From Gammaproteobacteria bacterium (GTDB lineage Bacteria > Pseudomonadota > Gammaproteobacteria > S012-40): DNA of 64,000 bases. The notes beneath the pieces were generated by a model. The model was not told the origin of the DNA. It was given only the letters and a program-made list of their open reading frames with translations, and did not search any database. This document shows, one piece after another, positions 27,700-45,691 of the stretch. The stretch spans positions 1 through 64,000 of the forward strand of contig WFPC01000055.1 in assembly GCA_015487785.1 (NCBI GenBank), given 5' to 3'. The stretch's first letter is position 1. The number at the start of each line of letters is the position of its first letter. The translations under genes were made by a program, and so were the position numbers.

Positions 27700-28446
27700 A
27701 TGAAAATCGACTATGACAGCCCGGTGGCGGTGACCCGGGATATCCACTGGGTGGGCTTCTACGACGATGCCGCCCACCTGCATTGCAATCCTTACCTGCT
27801 GATCGACGACGAGGACATCGTGCTGGTCGATCCGGGCTCCATTCCACATTTTCCGGTGGTGATGCGCAAGGTGATGGAGCTGGTGAACCCGGAGGACATC
27901 ACCCATGTGGTGGTGCAGCACCAGGATCCGGACGTGTGCGGCAATCTCGCCGTGGTGGAGGACGTGATCAACCGCAACGACCTGAAGATCGTCACCCATA
28001 CCAGCACGGCCCGCCTCATTCGCCATCTGGGCCTGCGTTCGGAATTCTATCTGGTGGATGAGCACGACTACCGGCTCGGCCTGCAGAGCGGACGGGAGCT
28101 GAGGTTTCTGTTCACCCCCTATCTGCATTCACCGGGCGCCATCGTCACCTATGACGTGCGTTCCCGCAGCCTGTTCACCAGCGATATCTTCGCTGCGATC
28201 TCCAAGGACTGGTCGCTGTTCGCCGAGGGGGATTTCCTTACGCCCATGGATCCCTTTCACCAGCACTACATGCCCAGTAACCGCATCCTGAAGCACTGTA
28301 TGGAACGCTTCGAGAAAATGGACCTGGAGCGGGTTCTGCCCCAGCACGGGTCCATTCTGGAGGGGGAGGACATCGCCAGGGCCATTGCGCATCTGAAGGC
28401 TCTGCCCTGCGGTATCGACCTGATGGACGATCAGCCCACGCTATGA
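27700..28446 (+). CDS. MBL-fold di-iron protein, oxygen-binding (ODP-like) domain
   Basis: This 248-residue protein has the beta-lactamase-like domain of flavodiiron proteins without flavodoxin or rubredoxin parts. Candidate iron ligands follow the flavodiiron pattern: His74, Asp76 and Asp78 in VVQHQDPDVCGN, His143 in YLHSPGA, Asp162 in LFTSDIF and His216 in VLPQHGSIL. The usual Glu of HxExDH is Asp76 and the second His is Val79, so a sensory rather than catalytic site is plausible, as in stand-alone ODP domains that bind O2 or NO. Its stop overlaps the start of a hybrid kinase that has no recognisable sensor of its own. An in-frame start at 27619 would add 27 residues across the promoter candidate and is not preferred. 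Confidence 0.75.
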   Translation: MKIDYDSPVAVTRDIHWVGFYDDAAHLHCNPYLLIDDEDIVLVDPGSIPHFPVVMRKVMELVNPEDITHVVVQHQDPDVCGNLAVVEDVINRNDLKIVTHTSTARLIRHLGLRSEFYLVDEHDYRLGLQSGRELRFLFTPYLHSPGAIVTYDVRSRSLFTSDIFAAISKDWSLFAEGDFLTPMDPFHQHYMPSNRILKHCMERFEKMDLERVLPQHGSILEGEDIARAIAHLKALPCGIDLMDDQPTL

Positions 28447-29954
28447 CCGAGAACATCGTCCAGGCCGGTTCCCGGCATGTCGCCGACATCCAGGGCATCA
28501 ATCGCGAATTGATCGAAAAGGCCTTGCGCATGCGCTGTCTGGCCTATTTGTCCCAGGTGAAATCGGAGTTGCTGGTGGAGACCATCCGGGACATGAACCA
28601 CAGCCGTCACGAGAAGGCGGTGTTGAGTGAAACCCTGGCCAGCCGTGGTGAGGAACTGGAGCGGCAGAAGCGCATCATCGAACAGCAGCGTCGCCAATTG
28701 GCAGAGCAGAATGTCCGCCTGCGCCGGGAGCGCGACCAGTTGCAGGTGGACGTGCAGGAGAAGAGCGCGGCCGAGCGCCAGGCCCGGGAGATTCTCGCGC
28801 GCACCCAGAAGCTGGATTCCCTGGGTGAGTTGAGCAGCGGTATCGCCCATGATTTCAATAACATACTCAATGTAATCAATGGCTATGCGGCGGAGCTGGA
28901 AAAAGCCCTGGCCGCCTGGCCCGAGCTGGCGCGCCATGCCCGGGAGATTCTCAGCGCCGGCACCCGTGGCGCCGGACTCACTCGCAAGTTGCTGGCATTC
29001 TCAAGAAAGACGGCCAGCGCGCCCGCGGTGGTGGACCTGAATACCGTGCTGCGGGAGTTGCACGACATGTTGCAAAAGACGCTCACCGCGCGCATCAAAC
29101 TTGAACTGGCGCTGGCGGAGGACCTGTGGCCGGTGTTGCTCGATGCCGCTGAGCTGGAGGATGCCGTGGTCAACCTGGTGGTCAATGCCATGCACGCCAT
29201 CGAGGGGCAGGGACATATCGTCATCGAGACTCAGAACCGCAAGTTGACTGCCAGGCAGGCCGCCATCCTGCAGCTCGGGGCCGGTGACCATGTGGCACTG
29301 TGCGTGCGCGACGACGGGGTGGGCATGACCGCTGCCGTGCGCAAGCGTATCTTCGAGCCCTTTTTCACCACCAAGGGTGACAAGGGCACCGGCCTGGGCC
29401 TTAGTCAGGTCTATGGCATGGTCAAGCGCGCCGGCGGGTCCATCGAGGTGGAATCGGCGCCTGGCAAGGGGGCGAGCTTCTGTCTCTATTTTCCCCGCCA
29501 CCACGGGGTGGTCGCGAGGAGGCCGGCGCCGGTATCCGGGGAACAAGGGGGCGATGCGCCGGCTGGCAACGAGACCATCCTGGTGGTGGACGACGAGCCC
29601 GCCTTGCGCGAACTGTGCCAGCTCATTCTCGAGCAACAAGGCTACCGGGTGCTGGTTGCGGGAAGCGGCCGCGAGGCGTTGGAGATCCTGGCGCGTGAGG
29701 CGGTGGATCTATTGTTGTCCGACGTGGTCATGCCGGAACTGAACGGCTTTCAGTTGGCCGCCCTGGTGCGCCAGCAATATCCCCGGGTGAAGGTACAGCT
29801 GGCCAGCGGGTTCACCGATCGCTGGAACAGCGGCGCCGACGACGAGGCCCTGCGCGAGCGCATGATCTGGAAGCCCTACCGGGCGCAGGAGTTGTTGCGG
29901 CGGGTGCGTCGCCTGCTCGACGCGGATCAGGCCGCCGGTGGCGAGACCCGGTAG
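28443..29954 (+). CDS. Soluble hybrid histidine kinase with C-terminal receiver
   Basis: This 503-residue kinase has no transmembrane segment and no PAS or GAF domain. An N-terminal helical region (1-60) leads to a long Gln/Arg/Glu-rich coiled coil (60-120), then an NtrB-type HisKA domain with His136 ([12 protein letters not shown]), HATPase (about 230-355; [31 protein letters not shown]) and a receiver domain (about 377-495) with acceptor Asp in [17 protein letters not shown] coupling to the ODP protein suggests that protein is its sensor, bound through the N-terminal region. The 3' end overlaps the convergent HD-GYP gene by 28 bases. Confidence 0.85.
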
Positions 29955-31564
29955 CCGGTGATCCGTTCGGGATCGACGTCGTCGATCTGTTCCGGGCGCA
30001 GGTATTTCAGCGCATAGTCCAGGTACACCTTTTGTTCCACGAAGATGTCGAACAAGTCGGGGTCAATGTGGCCGTCCAGCTTCATCTTGCCGAGAATGTC
30101 CAATGCCTGGGACAGGGTCATGGGCTTTTTGTAGGGGCGATCGGCGGCTGTGAGGGCCTCGAAGATGTCGGCGATGCCCATCAAGCGCGCCTGGACCGAC
30201 ATCTCTTCGCGGGTGAGGCCGCGCGGATACCCCTTGCCATCCATGCGTTCGTGGTGACCGCCGGCGATCTCGGGCACGTTTTTCAGGTGCCGGGGAAAGG
30301 GCAGGGATTCCAGCATCTTGATGGTGCGCACGATGTGGTTGTTGATGATCTCGCGTTCTTCCGGTGTGAGGGTGCCACGGCTGACCTGCAGGTTGTAGAC
30401 CTCTTCCTCGGTGAGCAGGGGGTGCAGGGTGCCGTTGTGGTCGCGCCATTGCCGGCGGGCGATGGTTTCCACCCGTGCCTGATCGGCGGGCTGCATGAAC
30501 TCGCCGCCCAGGTTGACTCGCGCAATGAAGGCCTGTTCGTCGGCCAGCTGTTCCATCTGCTCGTGATAATGCCGTTCCGCCTGGGGGTCGGCGGGGTGGC
30601 CCTGTTCCAGGGCCTCCAGTCGCTGGCGCAGATAGGCGATCTCGGCGTCGCGGCGCAGGATCTCGAAGCGGGCGTCCACCAGGTGGCGACGGTCGAAAAT
30701 GGTTTCCAGCTTGGTGGCCTTGTCCACCACGTGCACCGGTGTGGTGATCTTGCCGCAGTCGTGCATCAGGGCGGCGATTTTCAGCTCATAGTGTTGTTCC
30801 TCGGTGAACTTCAATTCGGCCAGCGGGCCACTGTCGGTGCGATCTATGGCTTCGGCCAGGCGTATGGCGATCTCCGGCACGCGACGGCAATGGCCGCCGG
30901 TATAGGGTGATTTTTCGTCGATGGCCTCGGCGATCACTTCGATGAACTTCTCCAGCAGATGGCGCAACTCGCCGATCAGGCGGTCGTTGGTCAGGGCCAC
31001 CGCCGCCTGTGAGGCAATGGATTCCGCCAGTTGCTGGTCGGCGCTGGTGAAGGGGATGGTGGCGCCATTGACCGGGTGTCTGGCATTGATGAGTTGCAGC
31101 ACGCCGATGAGTTCGTTTTCGTGGTCGCACATGGGAATAGCCAGGAAGGACTGCGAGCGGTAGCCGGTGTTCTGGTCGTAGGCCTTGGTGCCGGCGAAAT
31201 CAAACCCCTCGGCGGTATAGGCATCGGGGATGTTCACCGGCTGGCCGGTGAGCGCGGTATAGGCGGCGATGTTTTGCATGTTGGGCCGGCCATCGGCATG
31301 GTACAGGGGCACCGGTGCCAGGGGCACCGGCTGGCCGCTGCTGCCACCGAAGGCCACACCCATGGAGTCGTTGCGCATGATGGCGAAGCGCAGATGTTTG
31401 CGTTCCTCGTCGATCAGGTAGACGGTGCCGGCATCGGCATGGGTGATCTTCTGGGCGCTGACGAGTATGCACTCCAGCAGTTTGTGGGGGTCTTTCTCGG
31501 CCGATAGCGAGATGCCGATCTGGTTGAGCATCTCGATGCGCTGGAGGATATCGGGGTGGTCCAT
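29927..31564 (-). CDS. GAF-HD-GYP cyclic-di-GMP phosphodiesterase
   Basis: This 545-residue protein has a GAF domain (about 18-195; AIPMCDHENELIGVLQLINA) followed by an HD-GYP phosphodiesterase domain. The metal-binding set is visible: His in SPYTGGHCRRVPEIA, the HD pair in ALMHDCGKITTP, paired His in GGHHERMDGKGYPRGL (full GYP motif) and D in GIADIFEALTAADRPYKK. An insertion of about 110 residues rich in Gln/Glu/Arg separates the HD half from the GYP half. It hydrolyses c-di-GMP to GMP or pGpG. It converges on the hybrid kinase gene with a 28-base overlap, so the two are probably functionally linked and may repress each other by antisense transcription. Confidence 0.88.
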   Translation of the reverse strand: MDHPDILQRIEMLNQIGISLSAEKDPHKLLECILVSAQKITHADAGTVYLIDEERKHLRFAIMRNDSMGVAFGGSSGQPVPLAPVPLYHADGRPNMQNIAAYTALTGQPVNIPDAYTAEGFDFAGTKAYDQNTGYRSQSFLAIPMCDHENELIGVLQLINARHPVNGATIPFTSADQQLAESIASQAAVALTNDRLIGELRHLLEKFIEVIAEAIDEKSPYTGGHCRRVPEIAIRLAEAIDRTDSGPLAELKFTEEQHYELKIAALMHDCGKITTPVHVVDKATKLETIFDRRHLVDARFEILRRDAEIAYLRQRLEALEQGHPADPQAERHYHEQMEQLADEQAFIARVNLGGEFMQPADQARVETIARRQWRDHNGTLHPLLTEEEVYNLQVSRGTLTPEEREIINNHIVRTIKMLESLPFPRHLKNVPEIAGGHHERMDGKGYPRGLTREEMSVQARLMGIADIFEALTAADRPYKKPMTLSQALDILGKMKLDGHIDPDLFDIFVEQKVYLDYALKYLRPEQIDDVDPERITGYRVSPPAA

Positions 31565-37514: not shown

Positions 37515-37602
37515 CGACAAGAGATTGCCGGTTTTGTGAACCTGTTCCCGGACAGGTTTGCGGAGGGCGTTTGTTGCCTGGCTAAAGTCAATACCTTTTG
37601 TA

Positions 37603-39579
37603 ATGAAATTGACCGTATTGAGCATTCGAACCAAGCTGAGCCTGCTGTTCGCCGGTCTTTTCCTGCTCGCGATGCTGGCGGTGACCGTGGCCACCGTGAT
37701 GCATGAACGCAGGCACATGTTGGCGCTGGTCCAGCGTCAGGCGGTGGATCTCACCACTTGGTATTTCGACAGCCTCAATACCCTGATGCTCACTGGCAGT
37801 ATGGAACAACGGTCGATCCTGCGTGACAAACTTCTACAGCGGAAGGGTGTGGTCGAGGCGCGGGTGATACGCGGTGAACCGGTGAAGCGCCAGTTTGGTC
37901 CCGGACTGGAACACGAGCAAGCCCGCGACGAGCTGGACCGGCGTGCCTTGCGGGGTGAGCAGGTGATCGAGTTCGGCGAGGGCCCAGCGGGCCGCGTGCT
38001 GACGGTCGTGACGCCCTTCCGCGCCACTGCCGACACCCGCGGGGTAAATTGTCTGCGTTGCCACCAGGTGGAGCCGGGAGCGGTCAATGGGGCGGTGCGC
38101 ATCGGCTATTCCCTGGCCGAGGTGGATGCCGACATCCAGCGTAGCCTGCAACATTATCTGGCCATCAACCTGGCGGTGTTCGGGGTCGGTTTTCTGCTGG
38201 CCAATCTGTTGTTGAGGCGCTGGGTCACCCAGCCCCTGCAGCATTTCATGGATGTGATCGAGCGTCGCGCCGACGGCGACGACACGGCCTGGGTGGCTTT
38301 CGATGGCGAGGATGAGATGGGACAACTGGGTCGGGCCTTCAACCAGATGGCGGAAAACATCAAGGCAGTCAGTCTGCGCGAGCGCGAGAATGCGATGCAG
38401 TTGCAGAAGAAGGTCGATCAGTTGTTGCATGTGACCCGGCGCGTGCGGGCCGGTGATTTCGATGTGCAGGTGGGTTTTGCCGGCGAGGATGCCATCGGTG
38501 AACTGGCCAGCAGCCTGCAGGCCATGATCGATGCCATTCGCCAGAACATGCTGGAGAAGAAACAGGCCATGGAGCATCTGCAACGCCGGGTGGATGCCAT
38601 TCTCGCGCAGGTGGAGGCGGTGGCGAGAGGAGACCTCGGTCGCCGCGTCAGCTTGCAGGGTGACGATGCCCTGGCGCAATTGGCGCGGGGCGTACAGGAC
38701 ATGATCGACAATCTCGCCCAGTTGGTGCGCCAGCTCCAGTCGGCCGGTGTCCAGGTGGCCACCACGGCAAACGAGATATCATCGAGCATGCTACAGGTCG
38801 AGCAATCGGCCCTCAAGCAGGCCGCGGCCACCGAGCAGATCACCGCCACCGCCACCGAGATTTGTGCCACCACCGGGGAGTTGGTGGACACTATGGACGA
38901 AGTGGCCCAGGTGGCCGAGCAGGCCTCCACCACGGCGGTGCACAGCCATGCCGGTCTGGCTCGCATGGAGGCCATGATGCGCCAGTTGGTGGAGCATTCC
39001 AGCCTGGTGGCCGACCGCCTCGACGGCCTGAGTGAAAAGGCCAGTGGCATCGGCGCCGTGGTCACCACTATTGGCAAGGTGGCGGATCAGACCAATCTGC
39101 TCTCTCTCAATGCCGCCATCGAGGCGGAAAAAGCGGGCGAGGCAGGACGCGGTTTTGCGGTGGTGGCGGCGGAGATTCGTCGCCTGGCCGACCAGAGTGC
39201 GGTGGCCACCCTGGACATCGAGCAGATGATCCGGGAAGTACAGGGGGCGGTGGATTCCGGTGTACGCAGCGCGCAGGATTTCACCGCACTGGTGCAACAG
39301 GCGGTGGACGAGGTCAAGGAGGTCAGCCGGCAGCAGACCGAGATCATCAACCAGGTGGAGACCCTGGGTCCGCGTTTCGAGAGCGTGCGCCAGGCCATGC
39401 ATTTCCAGTCCGAGGGCGGCGAGCAGATCAATGCGGCCATCAGCCAGCTCAACAACGACAGCAAGCGGGCGGTGAAGTCCCTGCGCCTGGTCAAGCTGGA
39501 GGTGCAGAAACTCGGTGCCGCCGCGCGTGCCCTGCATGCCAGTGTATCCCGTTTTTTCACCGGGGAGCACAAGGCATGA
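37603..39579 (+). CDS. WspA-like chemoreceptor with periplasmic c-type heme motif
   Basis: This 658-residue methyl-accepting chemotaxis protein has TM1 (about 11-33), a periplasmic domain (34-185) containing CLRCH (Cys150, Cys153, His154), TM2 (about 186-205), then HAMP units near 206-258, 275-327 and 335-390 and a signalling hairpin to the end. CxxCH in an exported domain is the covalent heme-c signature, as in heme-c receptors described from Geobacter. The hairpin tip QTNLLSLNAAIEAEKAGEAG and the following IRRLADQSAVATLDIEQM closely match WspA. ATG at 37603 is preferred over an upstream TTG. No strong ribosome site is seen. It overlaps the CheW-like gene by ATGA. Confidence 0.85.
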   Translation: MKLTVLSIRTKLSLLFAGLFLLAMLAVTVATVMHERRHMLALVQRQAVDLTTWYFDSLNTLMLTGSMEQRSILRDKLLQRKGVVEARVIRGEPVKRQFGPGLEHEQARDELDRRALRGEQVIEFGEGPAGRVLTVVTPFRATADTRGVNCLRCHQVEPGAVNGAVRIGYSLAEVDADIQRSLQHYLAINLAVFGVGFLLANLLLRRWVTQPLQHFMDVIERRADGDDTAWVAFDGEDEMGQLGRAFNQMAENIKAVSLRERENAMQLQKKVDQLLHVTRRVRAGDFDVQVGFAGEDAIGELASSLQAMIDAIRQNMLEKKQAMEHLQRRVDAILAQVEAVARGDLGRRVSLQGDDALAQLARGVQDMIDNLAQLVRQLQSAGVQVATTANEISSSMLQVEQSALKQAAATEQITATATEICATTGELVDTMDEVAQVAEQASTTAVHSHAGLARMEAMMRQLVEHSSLVADRLDGLSEKASGIGAVVTTIGKVADQTNLLSLNAAIEAEKAGEAGRGFAVVAAEIRRLADQSAVATLDIEQMIREVQGAVDSGVRSAQDFTALVQQAVDEVKEVSRQQTEIINQVETLGPRFESVRQAMHFQSEGGEQINAAISQLNNDSKRAVKSLRLVKLEVQKLGAAARALHASVSRFFTGEHKA

Positions 39580-40253
39580 CGCCTGAATTCGCCGAACGCC
39601 TGGCAGACGAATCCTGCTGGCGCCAGCAGGGCGTGTGGGGTCGGCAGCGTCCCCGTTGTGCGCGCCTGGACGAGGTGTTGCACTGCCGCAATTGCGAGGT
39701 GTTCGCGCTGGCGGCGCGGCGACGTTTCAGCGACCGGGCATCGACCGGCATATTGGCCGTGGGCAGCGATGAGCTGGAGGCCCGCCGCCGGGGTGACGCG
39801 GCAGTATTGCCCTGCCTGGTCGCCGGCCACTGGCTGGGTTTTCCGCTGGCGGTGGTGGCCTCGGTGGAGCCCTTGCCGGCGGTGCATTCCCTGCCGCGGC
39901 TCGGGACCACTGCCATACAGGGCCTGACGGCGCTGCAAGGTGCGCTGGTACTGGTGATTTCGCTGGCGGCCCTGCTGGGCCTCGAGGCCGGTGCCACGAT
40001 CTTGCCGAAACATGAGAAATTCTATTGCACACGCTGCCTGCAACTGGAGCTGGCAGGCAGGCGGGTGGCCTTTGCCGTGGAACGGGTGTTGGATCCTCAA
40101 CGTTATTACCGGCGGAAGCTGGTACCGGTGAGTGAAATGTCGGCGGAGTATCCTGAACTATGGCAGGGCGTGCTCGAGGATGAGCAGGGGCGGCACATCC
40201 TGGTATGTGATCCGGGACGCCTGAGCAGACGGCTGCAAGAGGTCTTGGCATGA
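39576..40253 (+). CDS. CheW-domain coupling protein, WspD-like
   Basis: This 225-residue protein has an N-terminal cysteine module, Cys14, Cys28, Cys37 and Cys40 (ending LHCRNCEVF), characteristic of the WspD-type CheW proteins, followed by a CheW fold (about 70-222). It would couple the receptor to the CheA-type kinase in the array. The cysteine module may bind a metal; the full set is retained. It is coupled by 4-base overlaps to the receptor gene upstream and the kinase gene downstream. No second CheW (WspB) is encoded nearby. Confidence 0.82.
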   Translation: MTPEFAERLADESCWRQQGVWGRQRPRCARLDEVLHCRNCEVFALAARRRFSDRASTGILAVGSDELEARRRGDAAVLPCLVAGHWLGFPLAVVASVEPLPAVHSLPRLGTTAIQGLTALQGALVLVISLAALLGLEAGATILPKHEKFYCTRCLQLELAGRRVAFAVERVLDPQRYYRRKLVPVSEMSAEYPELWQGVLEDEQGRHILVCDPGRLSRRLQEVLA

Positions 40254-42514
40254 GTGAAGATGATAAAACCGAAGACCTGAGTGGTTATTCCATGCTGGAG
40301 CTGTTCCGCATGGAGGTGACCACGCAACTGGCGGCGTTCAGTCGCCATCTGCTGGCCATGGAACATGCCGCCCCGAATTCCGCTGACTGGGAGGCCCTGT
40401 TGCGCGCGCTGCATTCCATCAAGGGGGCTGCGCGCATGGTGCAGGCCGGCGCCGTGGTGCGTATCGTCCACGGCCTGGAGGAATTCCTGCTCGCGGCGCA
40501 ACGGGGAGAGGTCGCGCTGGATGCGCGCGCCATCGACCTGTTGCTGGTCCAGGGTGATGCGATCCAGCACATCGTCGGACACGACGAACAACAGATCCTG
40601 GCCTGGGAACAGACCCATGAAACCGAACTGGCGCAGCTGCAGGAGCAACTCGAACGCCTGTTGCAGCGGGGCGACGCCGGGCCCGTGGCAGGGGATGGCG
40701 TCTCTGTCGTGCCCGAGGGCGAGATCGGGAAAAGAGTAGCGGAGAGCGAGTTGCGTATTCATACCAGCCGCCTGGACCGCATACTTGGCCTGGCCAGCGG
40801 CGTGTTGGTGGAGAGTCATCGTTTCCGGAGTCATCTCGATCGCCTGGGACAGATGAAGCAATTGCACTTCGCCCTGGTGGCCGAGCTGGACCGCTTGCGT
40901 CAATGTGCCGCCACCGCCCGCCTGGACGAGGCGGCTCGTGGCCACCTGCAGCGACTGGAGCGGCTGGCGGCCGATTGTCGACAACAGTTCGCCGATCTGT
41001 TGGCCGAGCTGGAGGCTTTCGATCGTCGCAGCGTCACTCTCAACGAGCAATTGCATCAGGAAGTCCTGTCCAGCCGCATGCGGCCTTTCGCCGACCTGGT
41101 GGCGGGCTTGCCCCGGCTGGTGCGCGACCTGGGACGTCAACTGGGCAAGGAAGTGCGCCTGGAAATGCAGGGCACCGAGACCCTGGTAGAGCGCGATGTC
41201 CTCGAACGCATCGACGTATCGCTCAAGCATCTCATCCAGAATGCCATCGATCATGGCATCGAACCGCCCGATGTCCGCCGCGCCATGGGTAAGCCGCCCT
41301 GGGGCACCCTGCGCCTGGAAGTGAGCCAGGGCGCCGGCATGCTGTTCCTGCTGGTGGCCGACGATGGTGCCGGTGTGGATCTGGCCGCGCTCGGTGAACG
41401 GCTGGTGCAGCAGGGCTTGTGCAGCCCGGAGGAACTTCTGCGCCTCGACGAGATGGCCTTGCTGGATTATCTCTTCGTGCCCGGCTTCAGCTCCCGCGAC
41501 GAGGCCACCCATTATTCGGGACGTGGTATCGGGTTGGATGTGGTCAGGGAAACCATAGAATCCCTGCGGGGCAGCATCCACGCCGCCACCGACCCGGGCC
41601 AGGGCACGCGCTTCCAGATCCTGCTGCCATTGAGCGTATCGGTGCTGCGGGCCCTGCAGGTGCGGATCGCTGGCGAGCCCTATGCTTTCCCCCTGGCCGA
41701 CATTCACCGCCTGCTGCGGGTACCGGCGCGGGTGTTGTGCCGTCCCGATGGCGGCAATGTGGACAGTATCGAGGTGGATGGCGAGCCGGCCCGCCTGTGC
41801 CATGCCTGCAGCGCCTTCGGGCGCCCCTTGCCGCGGCACTTCGACGACGAGCTGGTGGTGCTGGTGATCGGCAGGCAGCCGCCCTATACGGCGCTGGTGG
41901 TGGAACAGGTGCTGGGCGAACAGGAACTGGCCCTGAGTTCCCTGGAACCGCTACTGGGGGAATTGGCGGGAATCAGCGCCGCCGCCCTGCTGGAGGATGG
42001 CAGTGTCACCCTGGTGGTGGATTGCGATCGACTGGGGCAATTGATCGCCGAAGGCTTCGAGCGTGGAGAGATTCCGGCATTCATGCCCTGCCGGCAGGAC
42101 GGGCCTGCCCGTCCCCGCGTGCTGGTGGCCGATGAATCGATGACGGCTCGGGTTTTGCAGAAAAATTTGCTCGAGGCGCAGGGTTACGAGGTTATCCTGG
42201 TGGCCGATGGCGCACATGCCCGGCGGGCCCTGGAAGCGCAGACGTTCGATCTTCTCGTCTGCGACGAGGACTTGCCGGAGATGGGAGGGCGGGAACTGCT
42301 GGGCTGGTTGCGCACGCGGGAAGCGACGACACATTTGCCGGTGATCCTGTTGCGTGACAGTGATCCCGGTGGGGAGAGCAGGGTGGCAGTGGACGAGGCC
42401 GCCGTCTGGCACATGGATAAAACCGATTTCGATGCACAAGGATTCATCACCACAGTGGCCGGAGCCCTCCAGCAGGGCGTTCGTCATGGCGAGCGGCACG
42501 ACCGTCCACAGTGA
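40250..42514 (+). CDS. CheA-type hybrid kinase with receiver, WspE-like
   Basis: This 754-residue kinase has an HPt/P1 domain with His55 (ALHSIKGAARMV), a linker, a P3 dimerisation region (about 165-265), HATPase/P4 (LKHLIQNAIDHGIEPP, DDGAGVDLAALG, YSGRGIGLDVVRETI), a CheW/P5 domain (about 470-600) and a C-terminal receiver (about 622-745) whose acceptor Asp lies in LLVCDEDLPEMGG. P2 is not evident. This is the architecture of WspE, which phosphorylates the cyclase WspR. The receiver here may act as a phosphate sink, since no CheB-like or CheY-like protein is encoded alongside. Confidence 0.87.
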   Translation: MSEDDKTEDLSGYSMLELFRMEVTTQLAAFSRHLLAMEHAAPNSADWEALLRALHSIKGAARMVQAGAVVRIVHGLEEFLLAAQRGEVALDARAIDLLLVQGDAIQHIVGHDEQQILAWEQTHETELAQLQEQLERLLQRGDAGPVAGDGVSVVPEGEIGKRVAESELRIHTSRLDRILGLASGVLVESHRFRSHLDRLGQMKQLHFALVAELDRLRQCAATARLDEAARGHLQRLERLAADCRQQFADLLAELEAFDRRSVTLNEQLHQEVLSSRMRPFADLVAGLPRLVRDLGRQLGKEVRLEMQGTETLVERDVLERIDVSLKHLIQNAIDHGIEPPDVRRAMGKPPWGTLRLEVSQGAGMLFLLVADDGAGVDLAALGERLVQQGLCSPEELLRLDEMALLDYLFVPGFSSRDEATHYSGRGIGLDVVRETIESLRGSIHAATDPGQGTRFQILLPLSVSVLRALQVRIAGEPYAFPLADIHRLLRVPARVLCRPDGGNVDSIEVDGEPARLCHACSAFGRPLPRHFDDELVVLVIGRQPPYTALVVEQVLGEQELALSSLEPLLGELAGISAAALLEDGSVTLVVDCDRLGQLIAEGFERGEIPAFMPCRQDGPARPRVLVADESMTARVLQKNLLEAQGYEVILVADGAHARRALEAQTFDLLVCDEDLPEMGGRELLGWLRTREATTHLPVILLRDSDPGGESRVAVDEAAVWHMDKTDFDAQGFITTVAGALQQGVRHGERHDRPQ

Positions 42515-42533
42515 ATCACAAGGGAAACCCGGC

Positions 42534-43571
42534 ATGCCCTGGCGCGAGCACAAGATTACCTGCATCCGCTCACCGGTGGTGATGATGGTGGACGACCAAG
42601 CCATCTTCGCCGAGTCGGTGCGCCGCATGCTCGAGGCCGAGGGTGATATCGTGTTCCATTATTGCAGCGACCCCACCAAGGCCATCGACATGGCGGCCGA
42701 GGTCAAGCCCACCGTGATCCTGCAGGATCTGCGCATGCCCGAGATCGATGGTCTCACCCTGGTGCGTTTCTTCCGCGCCAACCCGGCCACCGAGTTGGTA
42801 CCGGTGATCGTGCTGTCCTCGGAGCAGGAGGCACAGGAAAAGAGCAAGGCCTTCAGCGCCGGCGCCAGTGACTACCTGGTGAAACTACCCGACCGGGTGG
42901 AACTGATCGCGCGCATCCGCGCCCACTCCAAGAACTATCTCACCCACCTGGAACGCGACGAGGCCTACCGCAAGCTGCGCGAACTGCAGAAAAAACTGGA
43001 ACAGAAGAATGCCGAGCTGCAACGCCTGACCAATCTCGACGGCCTGACCACCATCGCCAACCGGCGGCGCTTCGACGAGGCTCTGCGCACCGAATGGATG
43101 CGCGCGGTGCGCAAGAAGACCATGCTGTCGCTGATTCTCATCGACATCGATTGCTTCAAGGCCTACAACGACAACTACGGCCACCAGGCCGGCGACGACT
43201 GCCTGCGCAAGGTGGCCCAGGCACTCAATTCCCGCTTCCGCCGTCCCACCGACCTGCTGGCCCGTTACGGCGGCGAGGAATTCGTGGTCTTGTTGCCCGA
43301 CACCCTGCTCAGTGGTGCCACCAAGCTGGCGCTGGAACTCAACGAATACATCAACCGCATCCATATTCCGCATCAGTTCTCCGACGTGGCCGACCACGTC
43401 ACTATCAGCCTGGGCGTGGCCTGTTGCCAGCCGGGGGCCGATGGCTATGATGCCAACAGTCTGATCGAGGCCGCCGATCGCGCCCTCTACGAGGCCAAGC
43501 GTGCCGGTCGCAACCAGGTCTCGGTGAGCCAGAGCTGCAGCAAGCGGGCGGAATCAGCCAGCGGCGATTGA
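42534..43571 (+). CDS. wspR: WspR-type response regulator diguanylate cyclase
   Basis: This 345-residue protein joins an N-terminal receiver (about 14-135; acceptor Asp65 in ILQDLRMPEIDG) to a helical linker and a GGDEF domain. The active site is GGEEF (246-250), with an intact inhibitory RxxD (Arg237 to Asp240) five residues before it. Length and sequence follow Pseudomonas WspR (347 aa), including the VVMMVDDQAIFAESVRR opening and the AGASDYLVKLPDRVELIARI segment. It makes c-di-GMP when phosphorylated. ATG at 42534 has AGGGA well placed; an in-frame ATG at 42486 would overlap the kinase gene. It ends the operon, 44 bases before relA. Confidence 0.93.
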   Translation: MPWREHKITCIRSPVVMMVDDQAIFAESVRRMLEAEGDIVFHYCSDPTKAIDMAAEVKPTVILQDLRMPEIDGLTLVRFFRANPATELVPVIVLSSEQEAQEKSKAFSAGASDYLVKLPDRVELIARIRAHSKNYLTHLERDEAYRKLRELQKKLEQKNAELQRLTNLDGLTTIANRRRFDEALRTEWMRAVRKKTMLSLILIDIDCFKAYNDNYGHQAGDDCLRKVAQALNSRFRRPTDLLARYGGEEFVVLLPDTLLSGATKLALELNEYINRIHIPHQFSDVADHVTISLGVACCQPGADGYDANSLIEAADRALYEAKRAGRNQVSVSQSCSKRAESASGD

Positions 43572-43602
43572 ACCCCGCGCCCATCTCGGCCTCCAAGGCG
43601 GG

Positions 43603-43608
43603 TACAAT
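43603..43608 (+). promoter_or_regulatory. Candidate -10 element directly before relA
   Basis: TACAAT (five of six) is followed by AGCCGCC and the relA ATG at 43616. Transcription would begin near 43615, giving an almost leaderless message, which is unusual; alternatively relA is read through from the wspR operon. No clear -35 is seen. Confidence 0.3.
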
Positions 43609-43615
43609 AGCCGCC

Positions 43616-45691
43616 ATGACGACACATACCGTGAGCAAAATCCAGCCTACCCTGCAGGAACACGTCCGTGCCTGGCTGCGCGAGCATGCCGACGAGACGG
43701 GGTGGGAAGCCGCCGGTGAATTGGCGCGACTGCTGGACACGCTGGGTGCCGACGAGGCGGTGATCGCCGCCGGCATGCTCAGCGAGGGCCTGGGCAGCCT
43801 GGCCGACGAGCGTCCGCTGCAACAGGCCTTTGGTGACGAGGTCTGCAAGCTGTACCGGGAGATTCGCCGTTTCATCGACGACCCCGCCGGCTGGCTGCAG
43901 GCGGCGGAGCAACACAGCGAGCCGGCCGAAGACCGTCAGTGGTTGTTGCTGGCCCTGTTGGACGACATTCGCGTGGTCTTCGTGCTGTTGGCCCACCAGG
44001 TCTTGCTGATGCGTGGACTCAAGCAACATCCGCCCGAGCAACAGCGCCAGATCGCCGCCCAGACCCGCAGCCTGTTCGCTCCGCTGGCCAATCGCCTGGG
44101 CATCGCCCGGCTCAAATGGGAACTGGAAGACCTGGCCTTTCGCTACCTGGAGCCGGTGCGCTATCACGAGATCGCCCGTGCCCTGGAGGAACGCCGCAGC
44201 GACCGCGAGCGCTACATCGAACAGGTGGTGGAGCAACTGCGCCAGGCCCTGCGGGAGGCGGGTATCGAGGCCGAGGTCTATGGCCGGCCGAAGCACATCT
44301 ACAGCATCTGGCGCAAGATGCAGCGCAAGCAGCTCGATTTCGACCAACTCTACGACGTGCGGGCCCTGCGGGTGATGGTGGATACGCTGGAGCAGTGCTA
44401 TGGCGCGCTGGCGGTGGTGCATGGTCTATGGCATTTCATTCCGGGTGAATACGACGACTATATCGCCGCGCCCAAGCCCAATGGCTACCAGTCGCTGCAC
44501 ACCGCGGTGGTCGGTCCCGGGGAGAAGACCCTGGAAGTCCAGATCCGCACCCGCGCCATGCACCGCCATGCCGAGCTGGGGGTGGCCGCCCATTGGCGCT
44601 ACAAGGAGGGCGGGCGTCACGATGCCTCGCTGGAGAGCCGCATCGAAAGTCTGCGTGCCCTGATCCGCGGCGAGGGCGACGGCCTGGCGCCCCCGGCGAC
44701 GGCAGATATCTATGTGCTCACCCCCCAAGGGCGGGTGGTGGAGCTGCCCGCCGGGGCCACGCCGCTGGATTTCGCCTATCGCGTTCACACCGAGCTGGGA
44801 CACCGCTGTCGAGGTGCCAGGGTGGACGGGCAGATGGTTCCTTTGACCACACCGCTGCGCAGTGGCCAGCAGGTGGAAATCCTCACCGCCAAACAGGCCC
44901 GTCCCAGCCGCGACTGGCTCAACCCGGAGCTGGGTTACCTCAAGAGCCGCCGGGCGCGTGCCAAGGTGCGTCACTGGTTCAAGCAGCAATACCGTGACGA
45001 GCACATCGCCGCTGGCCGTGCCGCCCTGCAGCGGGAGCTGGGCAAGGCGCGTGTCGCCGAACTGGATCTGGCGGCCCTGGCCACGCAGTTCAACTACCAA
45101 GAGGCCGACGACCTGCTGGCGGCCCTGGGGCGAGGGGAATTGGGCCTACACAGCCTGCACAACGCCATCGCCCGCGATGAACACGTGCCAGAAGATGCAC
45201 AGGCCCTGCCGGCGCCCGTGCCGCGGACGGCGGCGTCACAAGACGAACCGGGTCACTTCATCGGTGTCGAAGGCCTGCTCACCAAGTTGGCCCGCTGCTG
45301 CAAGCCCATGCCCGGTGATGACATCGTCGGCTACGTCACCCAGGGGCGTGGGGTGAGCATCCACCGGCGCCACTGCCGCAATCTCGCCCATCTGATCAAG
45401 CGGCATCCCCGGCGCCTGCTGGAAGTGGACTGGGTGGTGGGCTCGCGCGGGCATTATCCGGTGGATGTGGAGGTGGAAGCCATGGACCGTCCCGGTCTGT
45501 TGCGTGACGTGACCTCGGTGCTGGCCGGTGAGGAGGTCAACGTGCTGGCCGCCAATACCCACAGCAACCGCCAGCGTCACACCGCGCGCATGCGCCTGAG
45601 TCTGGAGGTGGCCGACGGCGCCCAGTTGCGCCGGGTGCTGGCGCGCCTGCTGCAGGTGCACAGTGTGTTCGAAGCGCGGCGGGTGGATTGA
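43616..45691 (+). CDS. relA: GTP pyrophosphokinase RelA
   Basis: This 691-residue (p)ppGpp synthetase has a degenerate HD region (1-180) lacking the His-Asp metal pair, so it is RelA-like rather than bifunctional SpoT. The synthetase domain follows (YGRPKHIYSIWRKMQRK near 222; DVRALRVMVD; PKPNGYQSLHTAVVG; EVQIRTRAMH), then TGS (ADIYVLTPQGRVVELPAGAT), a helical region, a conserved cysteine segment (LTKLARCCKPMPGDDIVGY) and a C-terminal ACT domain. It responds to uncharged tRNA on stalled ribosomes. The neighbour mazG, directly downstream with TGATG overlap, confirms the assignment. Confidence 0.93.
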   Translation: MTTHTVSKIQPTLQEHVRAWLREHADETGWEAAGELARLLDTLGADEAVIAAGMLSEGLGSLADERPLQQAFGDEVCKLYREIRRFIDDPAGWLQAAEQHSEPAEDRQWLLLALLDDIRVVFVLLAHQVLLMRGLKQHPPEQQRQIAAQTRSLFAPLANRLGIARLKWELEDLAFRYLEPVRYHEIARALEERRSDRERYIEQVVEQLRQALREAGIEAEVYGRPKHIYSIWRKMQRKQLDFDQLYDVRALRVMVDTLEQCYGALAVVHGLWHFIPGEYDDYIAAPKPNGYQSLHTAVVGPGEKTLEVQIRTRAMHRHAELGVAAHWRYKEGGRHDASLESRIESLRALIRGEGDGLAPPATADIYVLTPQGRVVELPAGATPLDFAYRVHTELGHRCRGARVDGQMVPLTTPLRSGQQVEILTAKQARPSRDWLNPELGYLKSRRARAKVRHWFKQQYRDEHIAAGRAALQRELGKARVAELDLAALATQFNYQEADDLLAALGRGELGLHSLHNAIARDEHVPEDAQALPAPVPRTAASQDEPGHFIGVEGLLTKLARCCKPMPGDDIVGYVTQGRGVSIHRRHCRNLAHLIKRHPRRLLEVDWVVGSRGHYPVDVEVEAMDRPGLLRDVTSVLAGEEVNVLAANTHSNRQRHTARMRLSLEVADGAQLRRVLARLLQVHSVFEARRVD

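Follow-up and report, generated by a model that had tools for sequence, protein, structure and literature searches.

The closest described systems are the oxygen-binding di-iron proteins (ODPs) of chemotaxis, known from Treponema denticola and Thermotoga maritima, for which PMC6978683 (citing Muok 2019) states that the ODP binds its receptor directly and in a conformation-dependent manner, and for which PMC7785958 names the Gln beside the last His as a replacement ligand in the Thermotoga protein. That ODPs share operons with genes of signal transduction and are also fused to signalling domains has already been noted (PMC7319448), so that the pairing of an ODP with signalling is not new as such. 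Hemerythrin-based enzymes of cyclic diguanosine monophosphate (c-di-GMP) turnover have also been described, namely Bhr-DGC of Vibrio cholerae and Bhr-HD-GYP of Ferrovum, in a census of c-di-GMP sensory input that does not list ODP (PMC8846402). Partner recognition and partner switching by stand-alone gas sensors are poorly known, and the characterised ODP works with chemoreceptors. Here we analyse a gammaproteobacterial stretch of 64,000 nucleotides (contig WFPC01000055.1, positions 1 to 64,000, assembly GCA_015487785.1; hereafter the window), in which the gene of a stand-alone ODP is followed by that of a hybrid histidine kinase without a sensor domain, and we describe a 32-residue block near the kinase N-terminus that accompanies one clade of ODPs, termed clade A, across very different outputs and that is probably the site at which the ODP docks.

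Results

Scanning genome contigs with the ODP as query gave 25 loci, and all 13 of the ODPs nearest to that of the window (55-84% identity) are followed by a partner whose N-terminus bears the block of the window kinase. Among 17 non-redundant partners the block, which spans residues 19-50 of the window kinase, has a mean identity of 49%, compared with 15% in the region before it and 21% in the region after it; Glu25 and Thr47 are invariant, with Met30, Arg31 and Lys40 almost invariant. Different outputs stand behind the block: GGDEF-EAL in symbionts of tubeworms and in Methyloprofundus (L002 and L006 scanned, L003-L005 being near-copies of L002), a hybrid kinase (L007), kinases (L008 and L009), a PAS kinase (L010), PAS (L011), PAS-PAS-GGDEF (L012) and a PAS-PAS-hybrid kinase (L013), and the partner at L014 is cut off, ending after 108 residues. 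Additional block-bearing partners are a plain kinase (L080) and two hybrid kinases of 1485 and 1707 amino acids. Because the block is common to partners with unrelated outputs, we take it to serve the ODP rather than the kinase. Two of these loci carry lesions that are either mutations or assembly errors, a frameshift at the start of the partner's block in L008 (2877-3000) and an internal TAG codon in the ODP gene of L009 (7995-8732). At L075 (4820-10989) an ODP is followed by a membrane-like hybrid kinase with Hpt and then by an overlapping REC-GGDEF gene, plausibly a phosphorelay from an ODP to a diguanylate cyclase.

The distribution of the block was followed with a profile hidden Markov model built from alignment A1, which gave two matches in 369 Gammaproteobacteria genomes, both beside a clade-A ODP. 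In 399 Pseudomonadota genomes it gave 12 strong matches (E below 1e-12), every one of them immediately preceded by an ODP gene. Three weaker matches (E above 0.002) were discarded as noise, a rescan having shown neither an ODP nor the block. An ODP search of the same 399 genomes found some ODP in 118, and the genomes with an ODP match of at least 50% identity, corresponding to clade A, were exactly the 12 that bear the block, which was absent from the other 106 ODP-bearing genomes. These 12 comprise the window genome, four whose contig and coordinates match those of loci from which the profile was built, and seven independent genomes, and the correspondence between block and clade-A ODP holds in each of the seven. 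Sampling two other classes (78 and 48 genomes) yielded no block match beyond the 12. Comparative evidence of this kind supports the ODP and the kinase as a two-protein unit, as the initial annotation of the locus had supposed, given that each of the 13 nearest ODPs has a block-tagged partner and that the block turned up nowhere else in the searches.

The phylogenetic tree unites the 20 clade-A ODPs in a single group (support 98/95), apart from the fused ODPs and two further groups of stand-alone ODPs; within it, the output must have changed between kinase and c-di-GMP enzyme three times or more. Distances between ODPs are correlated with distances between their blocks (Mantel r 0.69, p 0.0002). 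In the fused ODPs the attached output is GGDEF, SpoIIE, histidine kinase-REC or a class III (adenylate/guanylate) cyclase domain, and in one sister clade most of the ODPs examined are fused to GGDEF. Individual cases are an ODP fused to HisKA-HATPase-REC (L097, 1378-3717) and one fused to an adenylate/guanylate cyclase domain (L100, 1372-3714). Clade B (L110-L114, L119) consists of stand-alone ODPs with an insertion of about 27 residues that holds several Cys; downstream of them lie genes of kinases or GGDEF proteins with a different common N-terminal segment, which appears as another, distinct instance of an ODP paired with a partner tag. Homology of the clade-A block to the N-termini of clade-B or clade-C partners was rejected by profile comparison, with probabilities below 1%. 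More distant ODP homologues of 25-32% identity (L024, L025, L026, L028-L038) showed no evident signalling partner directly downstream, many of their flanks being short.

The 248-residue protein of the window is a true member of the ODP family, matching PF19583 with 215.5 bits against a cut-off of 27.2 (E-values in Table 1); its other Pfam match is the generic Lactamase_B, and its best sequence matches in the PDB are the solved ODPs 6qrq and 6qnm. The chain stops after the metallo-beta-lactamase domain, and the Pfam scan of the protein found neither a flavodoxin domain nor a rubredoxin or flavodoxin partner domain that could supply electrons. Its predicted ligands are His74, Asp76, Asp78, His143, Asp162, Gln215 and His216, and these seven positions, Gln215 included, are without variation in an alignment of 46 ODPs from five clades, all of which have Val, Leu or Ile at position 79. 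A loss of ligand at Val79 is thereby ruled out, and the missing ligand His is accounted for, since Gln215 replaces it.

A structural model was calculated with AlphaFold2 for the clade-A relative G332, whose ODP is 57% identical to that of the window. Its ODP and kinase genes, which lie in one frame, were read through as a single chain with the TAG stop taken as a residue, and the alignment was used without the partner-only rows, which MAFFT had aligned to the ODP part. The ODP folded well in this model, and its ten top PDB fold matches were all ODP chains (6qrq, 6qwo, 6qnm and 6r9n; template modelling score by target 0.81-0.84), so that every flavodiiron protein ranks below the four ODP entries, one of which, 6r9n, is a peroxy di-iron structure. 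The block forms part of a long helix in the same chain, at lower confidence (predicted local distance difference test 71-77). The window ODP very probably senses oxygen, and it is predicted to bind iron and O2.

The partner kinase has HisKA (28.3 bits, cut-off 26.9), HATPase_c (residues 234-352) and REC (379-488) domains with intact motifs, namely the H-box HDFNN at 136, NLVVNA at 244, DDGVGM at 290, GTGLGL at 315 and SDVVMP at 426, and Pfam recognised no sensor domain in it, nor any domain ahead of residue 127. In an AlphaFold2 prediction (monomer only, 11 sequences, predicted template modelling score 0.49), residues 2-155 are a single helix that continues into the phospho-acceptor helix.

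Most of what the initial annotation had stated about the two proteins was borne out: His74, Asp76, Asp78, Val79, His143, Asp162 and His216 are all at the positions it gave, the ODP is without a flavodoxin domain, and the kinase is a hybrid kinase with no sensor. It had correctly read Val79 at the position of a ligand His; this residue is, however, ordinary in ODPs and no defect, and Gln215 had been overlooked. Likewise, the kinase N-terminus had been described as only helical or coiled-coil, and although the helix is predicted, the conservation of residues 19-50 makes it more than a coiled coil. The layout of the three genes of the locus (Table 1) is also as then described, with the kinase start inside the ODP stop and a convergent overlap of 28 bases, tail to tail, between the kinase gene and the HD-GYP gene. 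An ODP/partner overlap of four bases is found in L002-L005 as well, and translational coupling of ODP and kinase through ATGA is likely from this arrangement.

Table 1 Features of the ODP-kinase locus in the window.
Feature	Position	Strand	Evidence
ODP-family di-iron sensor protein, 248 aa	27700..28446	+	PF19583 E 8.2e-64; PDB 6qrq E 6.8e-34
Hybrid histidine kinase without sensor domain, 503 aa	28443..29954	+	Pfam, motif positions, AlphaFold2 helix
Conserved N-terminal block, kinase residues 19-50, proposed ODP docking tag	28497..28592	+	Alignment, conservation profile, HMM matches
ATGA, ODP stop / kinase start overlap	28443..28446	+	Sequence
Convergent GAF-HD-GYP phosphodiesterase gene, 545 aa	29927..31564	-	Pfam, motifs; positional neighbour

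The convergent gene encodes an HD-GYP protein with a GAF domain and intact HD and HHE-GYP motifs (Pfam, motif positions), in which Pfam found no receiver domain. Its HD half ends at about residue 297 and its GYP half starts at about 387, with a long insert at residues of about 295-395. Further along the plus strand of the window (37558-43571) lies a Wsp-like chemosensory operon, comprising a methyl-accepting chemotaxis protein with HAMP, CheW, CheA with REC and then REC-GGDEF, followed by a RelA/SpoT gene (43568-45691). This operon is a c-di-GMP output some 8 kb from the ODP-kinase pair, and there is no evidence connecting the two.

Discussion

The pattern of conservation leads us to propose that the ODP and the kinase form a bipartite unit for sensing oxygen and iron, and we consider it likely that the kinase is controlled by an ODP docked on the N-terminal block. 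The stand-alone ODP would shift its conformation when its diferrous site meets O2 and would signal by binding the hybrid kinase translated along with it, at the block (about residues 19-50); block and phospho-acceptor helix would be one long helix, so that a bound ODP could alter the dimeric helix and in this way switch autophosphorylation, and the output would pass to the kinase's own REC, from there to an Hpt protein and on to a response regulator. Iron and O2 binding by the window ODP, the direction of regulation and the downstream target are what we infer, as is docking, which we deduce from comparative genomics. Seen across clade A, we incline, with modest confidence, to regard the block as a portable docking tag that couples one di-iron oxygen sensor to interchangeable effectors (hybrid and membrane kinases, GGDEF-EAL, PAS-GGDEF) and is kept while the outputs swap, with the second clade, marked by its Cys insertion, doing likewise through a different segment.

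Several observations weigh against docking on the block. The single-chain model of G332 has no clear docking, and the relative placement of ODP and block in it cannot be judged. In the partners of 1485 and 1707 amino acids a hydrophobic, membrane-like stretch lies between block and kinase, and a continuous signalling helix is therefore not a general mechanism. In a sister ODP clade the partners start with another N-terminal segment, for which no homology to the block could be detected, and operon co-inheritance or common descent alone can yield the observed correlation between ODP and block distances. Much of this would also suit a dimerisation or transmission segment of the effector that travels together with the ODP gene, the ODP itself acting elsewhere or only loosely on the kinase, since the block is predicted to be helical and continuous with the phospho-acceptor helix, co-inheritance could explain the co-occurrence too, and the read-through model is without clear docking. 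We nevertheless think such a segment unlikely, because the coil downstream of the block diverges whereas the block itself persists on kinases, on GGDEF-EAL and PAS-GGDEF proteins and on membrane kinases, and because it was never seen on a kinase without an ODP in the 399 genomes, a restriction not expected of a generic dimerisation segment. The ODP itself could sense nitric oxide (NO) or the redox state instead of O2, as NO reductases are among its flavodiiron relatives and as the initial annotation had allowed for NO; this is improbable and finds no support, the characterised ODP being described as a sensor of Fe(II) and oxygen (PMC6978683, and the title of Muok 2019 as cited in PMC7666581). 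Its place in the flavodiiron-like branch of the metallo-beta-lactamase fold would also suit an enzyme (an O2 or NO reductase, or a hydrolase) that adjoins the kinase for regulatory convenience, to which we attach hardly any probability, considering the lack of a flavodoxin or rubredoxin partner domain as electron supply, a ligand set that is that of the ODP sensors with Gln replacing His, and relatives fused to GGDEF, SpoIIE, histidine kinase-REC or cyclase outputs.

The initial annotation had further supposed that the kinase output bears on c-di-GMP turnover through the convergent HD-GYP gene and had suggested conservation of all three genes as a check. A functional trio, in which the kinase output directly alters c-di-GMP degradation by this enzyme, would fit the tail-to-tail overlap and the recurrence of c-di-GMP enzymes as partners, fusions or neighbours of ODPs elsewhere, such as the REC-HD-GYP response regulator upstream of the ODP in L009. 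It is nonetheless very improbable. The HD-GYP protein has a GAF but no receiver domain, and therefore no site for the kinase to phosphorylate; its homologues (57-64% identity) occur in 10 of 12 genomes of the same family, none of which has a clade-A ODP, and no close homologue stands beside the ODPs of relatives at the loci examined. In the related genome G008, glk, apaG, HD-GYP and a UvrD-like gene are arranged in this sequence, and some 400 bases that hold one small open reading frame take the place of the ODP-kinase pair; judging from this one relative the pair likely entered beside a pre-existing HD-GYP gene. The HD-GYP gene is thus not kept beside the ODP-kinase pair, and we rejected it as a member of the unit. 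What remains of the supposed connection to c-di-GMP is indirect, by way of the GGDEF-EAL partners of the nearest relatives, the PAS-PAS-GGDEF partner of another and the ODP-GGDEF fusions of a sister clade; with 21 GGDEF and six Hpt matches elsewhere in the genome, control of c-di-GMP by another route is possible.

Should the docking proposal be correct, nature would have attached a simple two-part oxygen switch to kinases and c-di-GMP enzymes alike, and the non-haem di-iron ODP would join the oxygen inputs of c-di-GMP signalling as an additional class. A block that sits on very different effectors, and only next to a clade-A ODP, offers a specific target of 32 residues for docking. The literature searched, which did not extend to most subscription papers, yielded no description of a block common to such partners, of its one-to-one association with a single ODP clade or of the swapping of outputs.

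Compared with known systems, the hemerythrin-based c-di-GMP enzymes likewise tie non-haem di-iron sensing of oxygen or redox state to c-di-GMP, but they do so with an unrelated fold and a covalently attached sensor, and for the window the tie to c-di-GMP is suggested by relatives only. The flavodiiron proteins (FprA, ROO, flavorubredoxin) share the metallo-beta-lactamase fold and most metal ligands with the window ODP, which differs from them by the absence of flavodoxin, Val at one ligand-His position, the addition of Gln215 and no electron partner seen. ODPs fused to GGDEF, SpoIIE, histidine kinase-REC or cyclase outputs have the same sensor domain, ligands and control logic, yet each is a single polypeptide from a separate clade of the tree, and searches of genomes with fused ODPs did not detect the clade-A block. 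Closest are the chemotaxis ODPs of T. denticola and T. maritima (6qnm, 6r9n, 6qrq, 6qwo), with the same family, fold and seven ligands, including the Gln beside the last His, and with the same arrangement of a soluble stand-alone sensor and a partner that has no sensing module of its own. Their partner is a chemoreceptor, whereas that of the window ODP, which is about 30% identical to the solved ODPs, is a hybrid histidine kinase; and unlike the chemotaxis ODP, for which receptor binding has been reported, clade A has a partner block common to many types of output, to which its ODPs are here predicted to bind.

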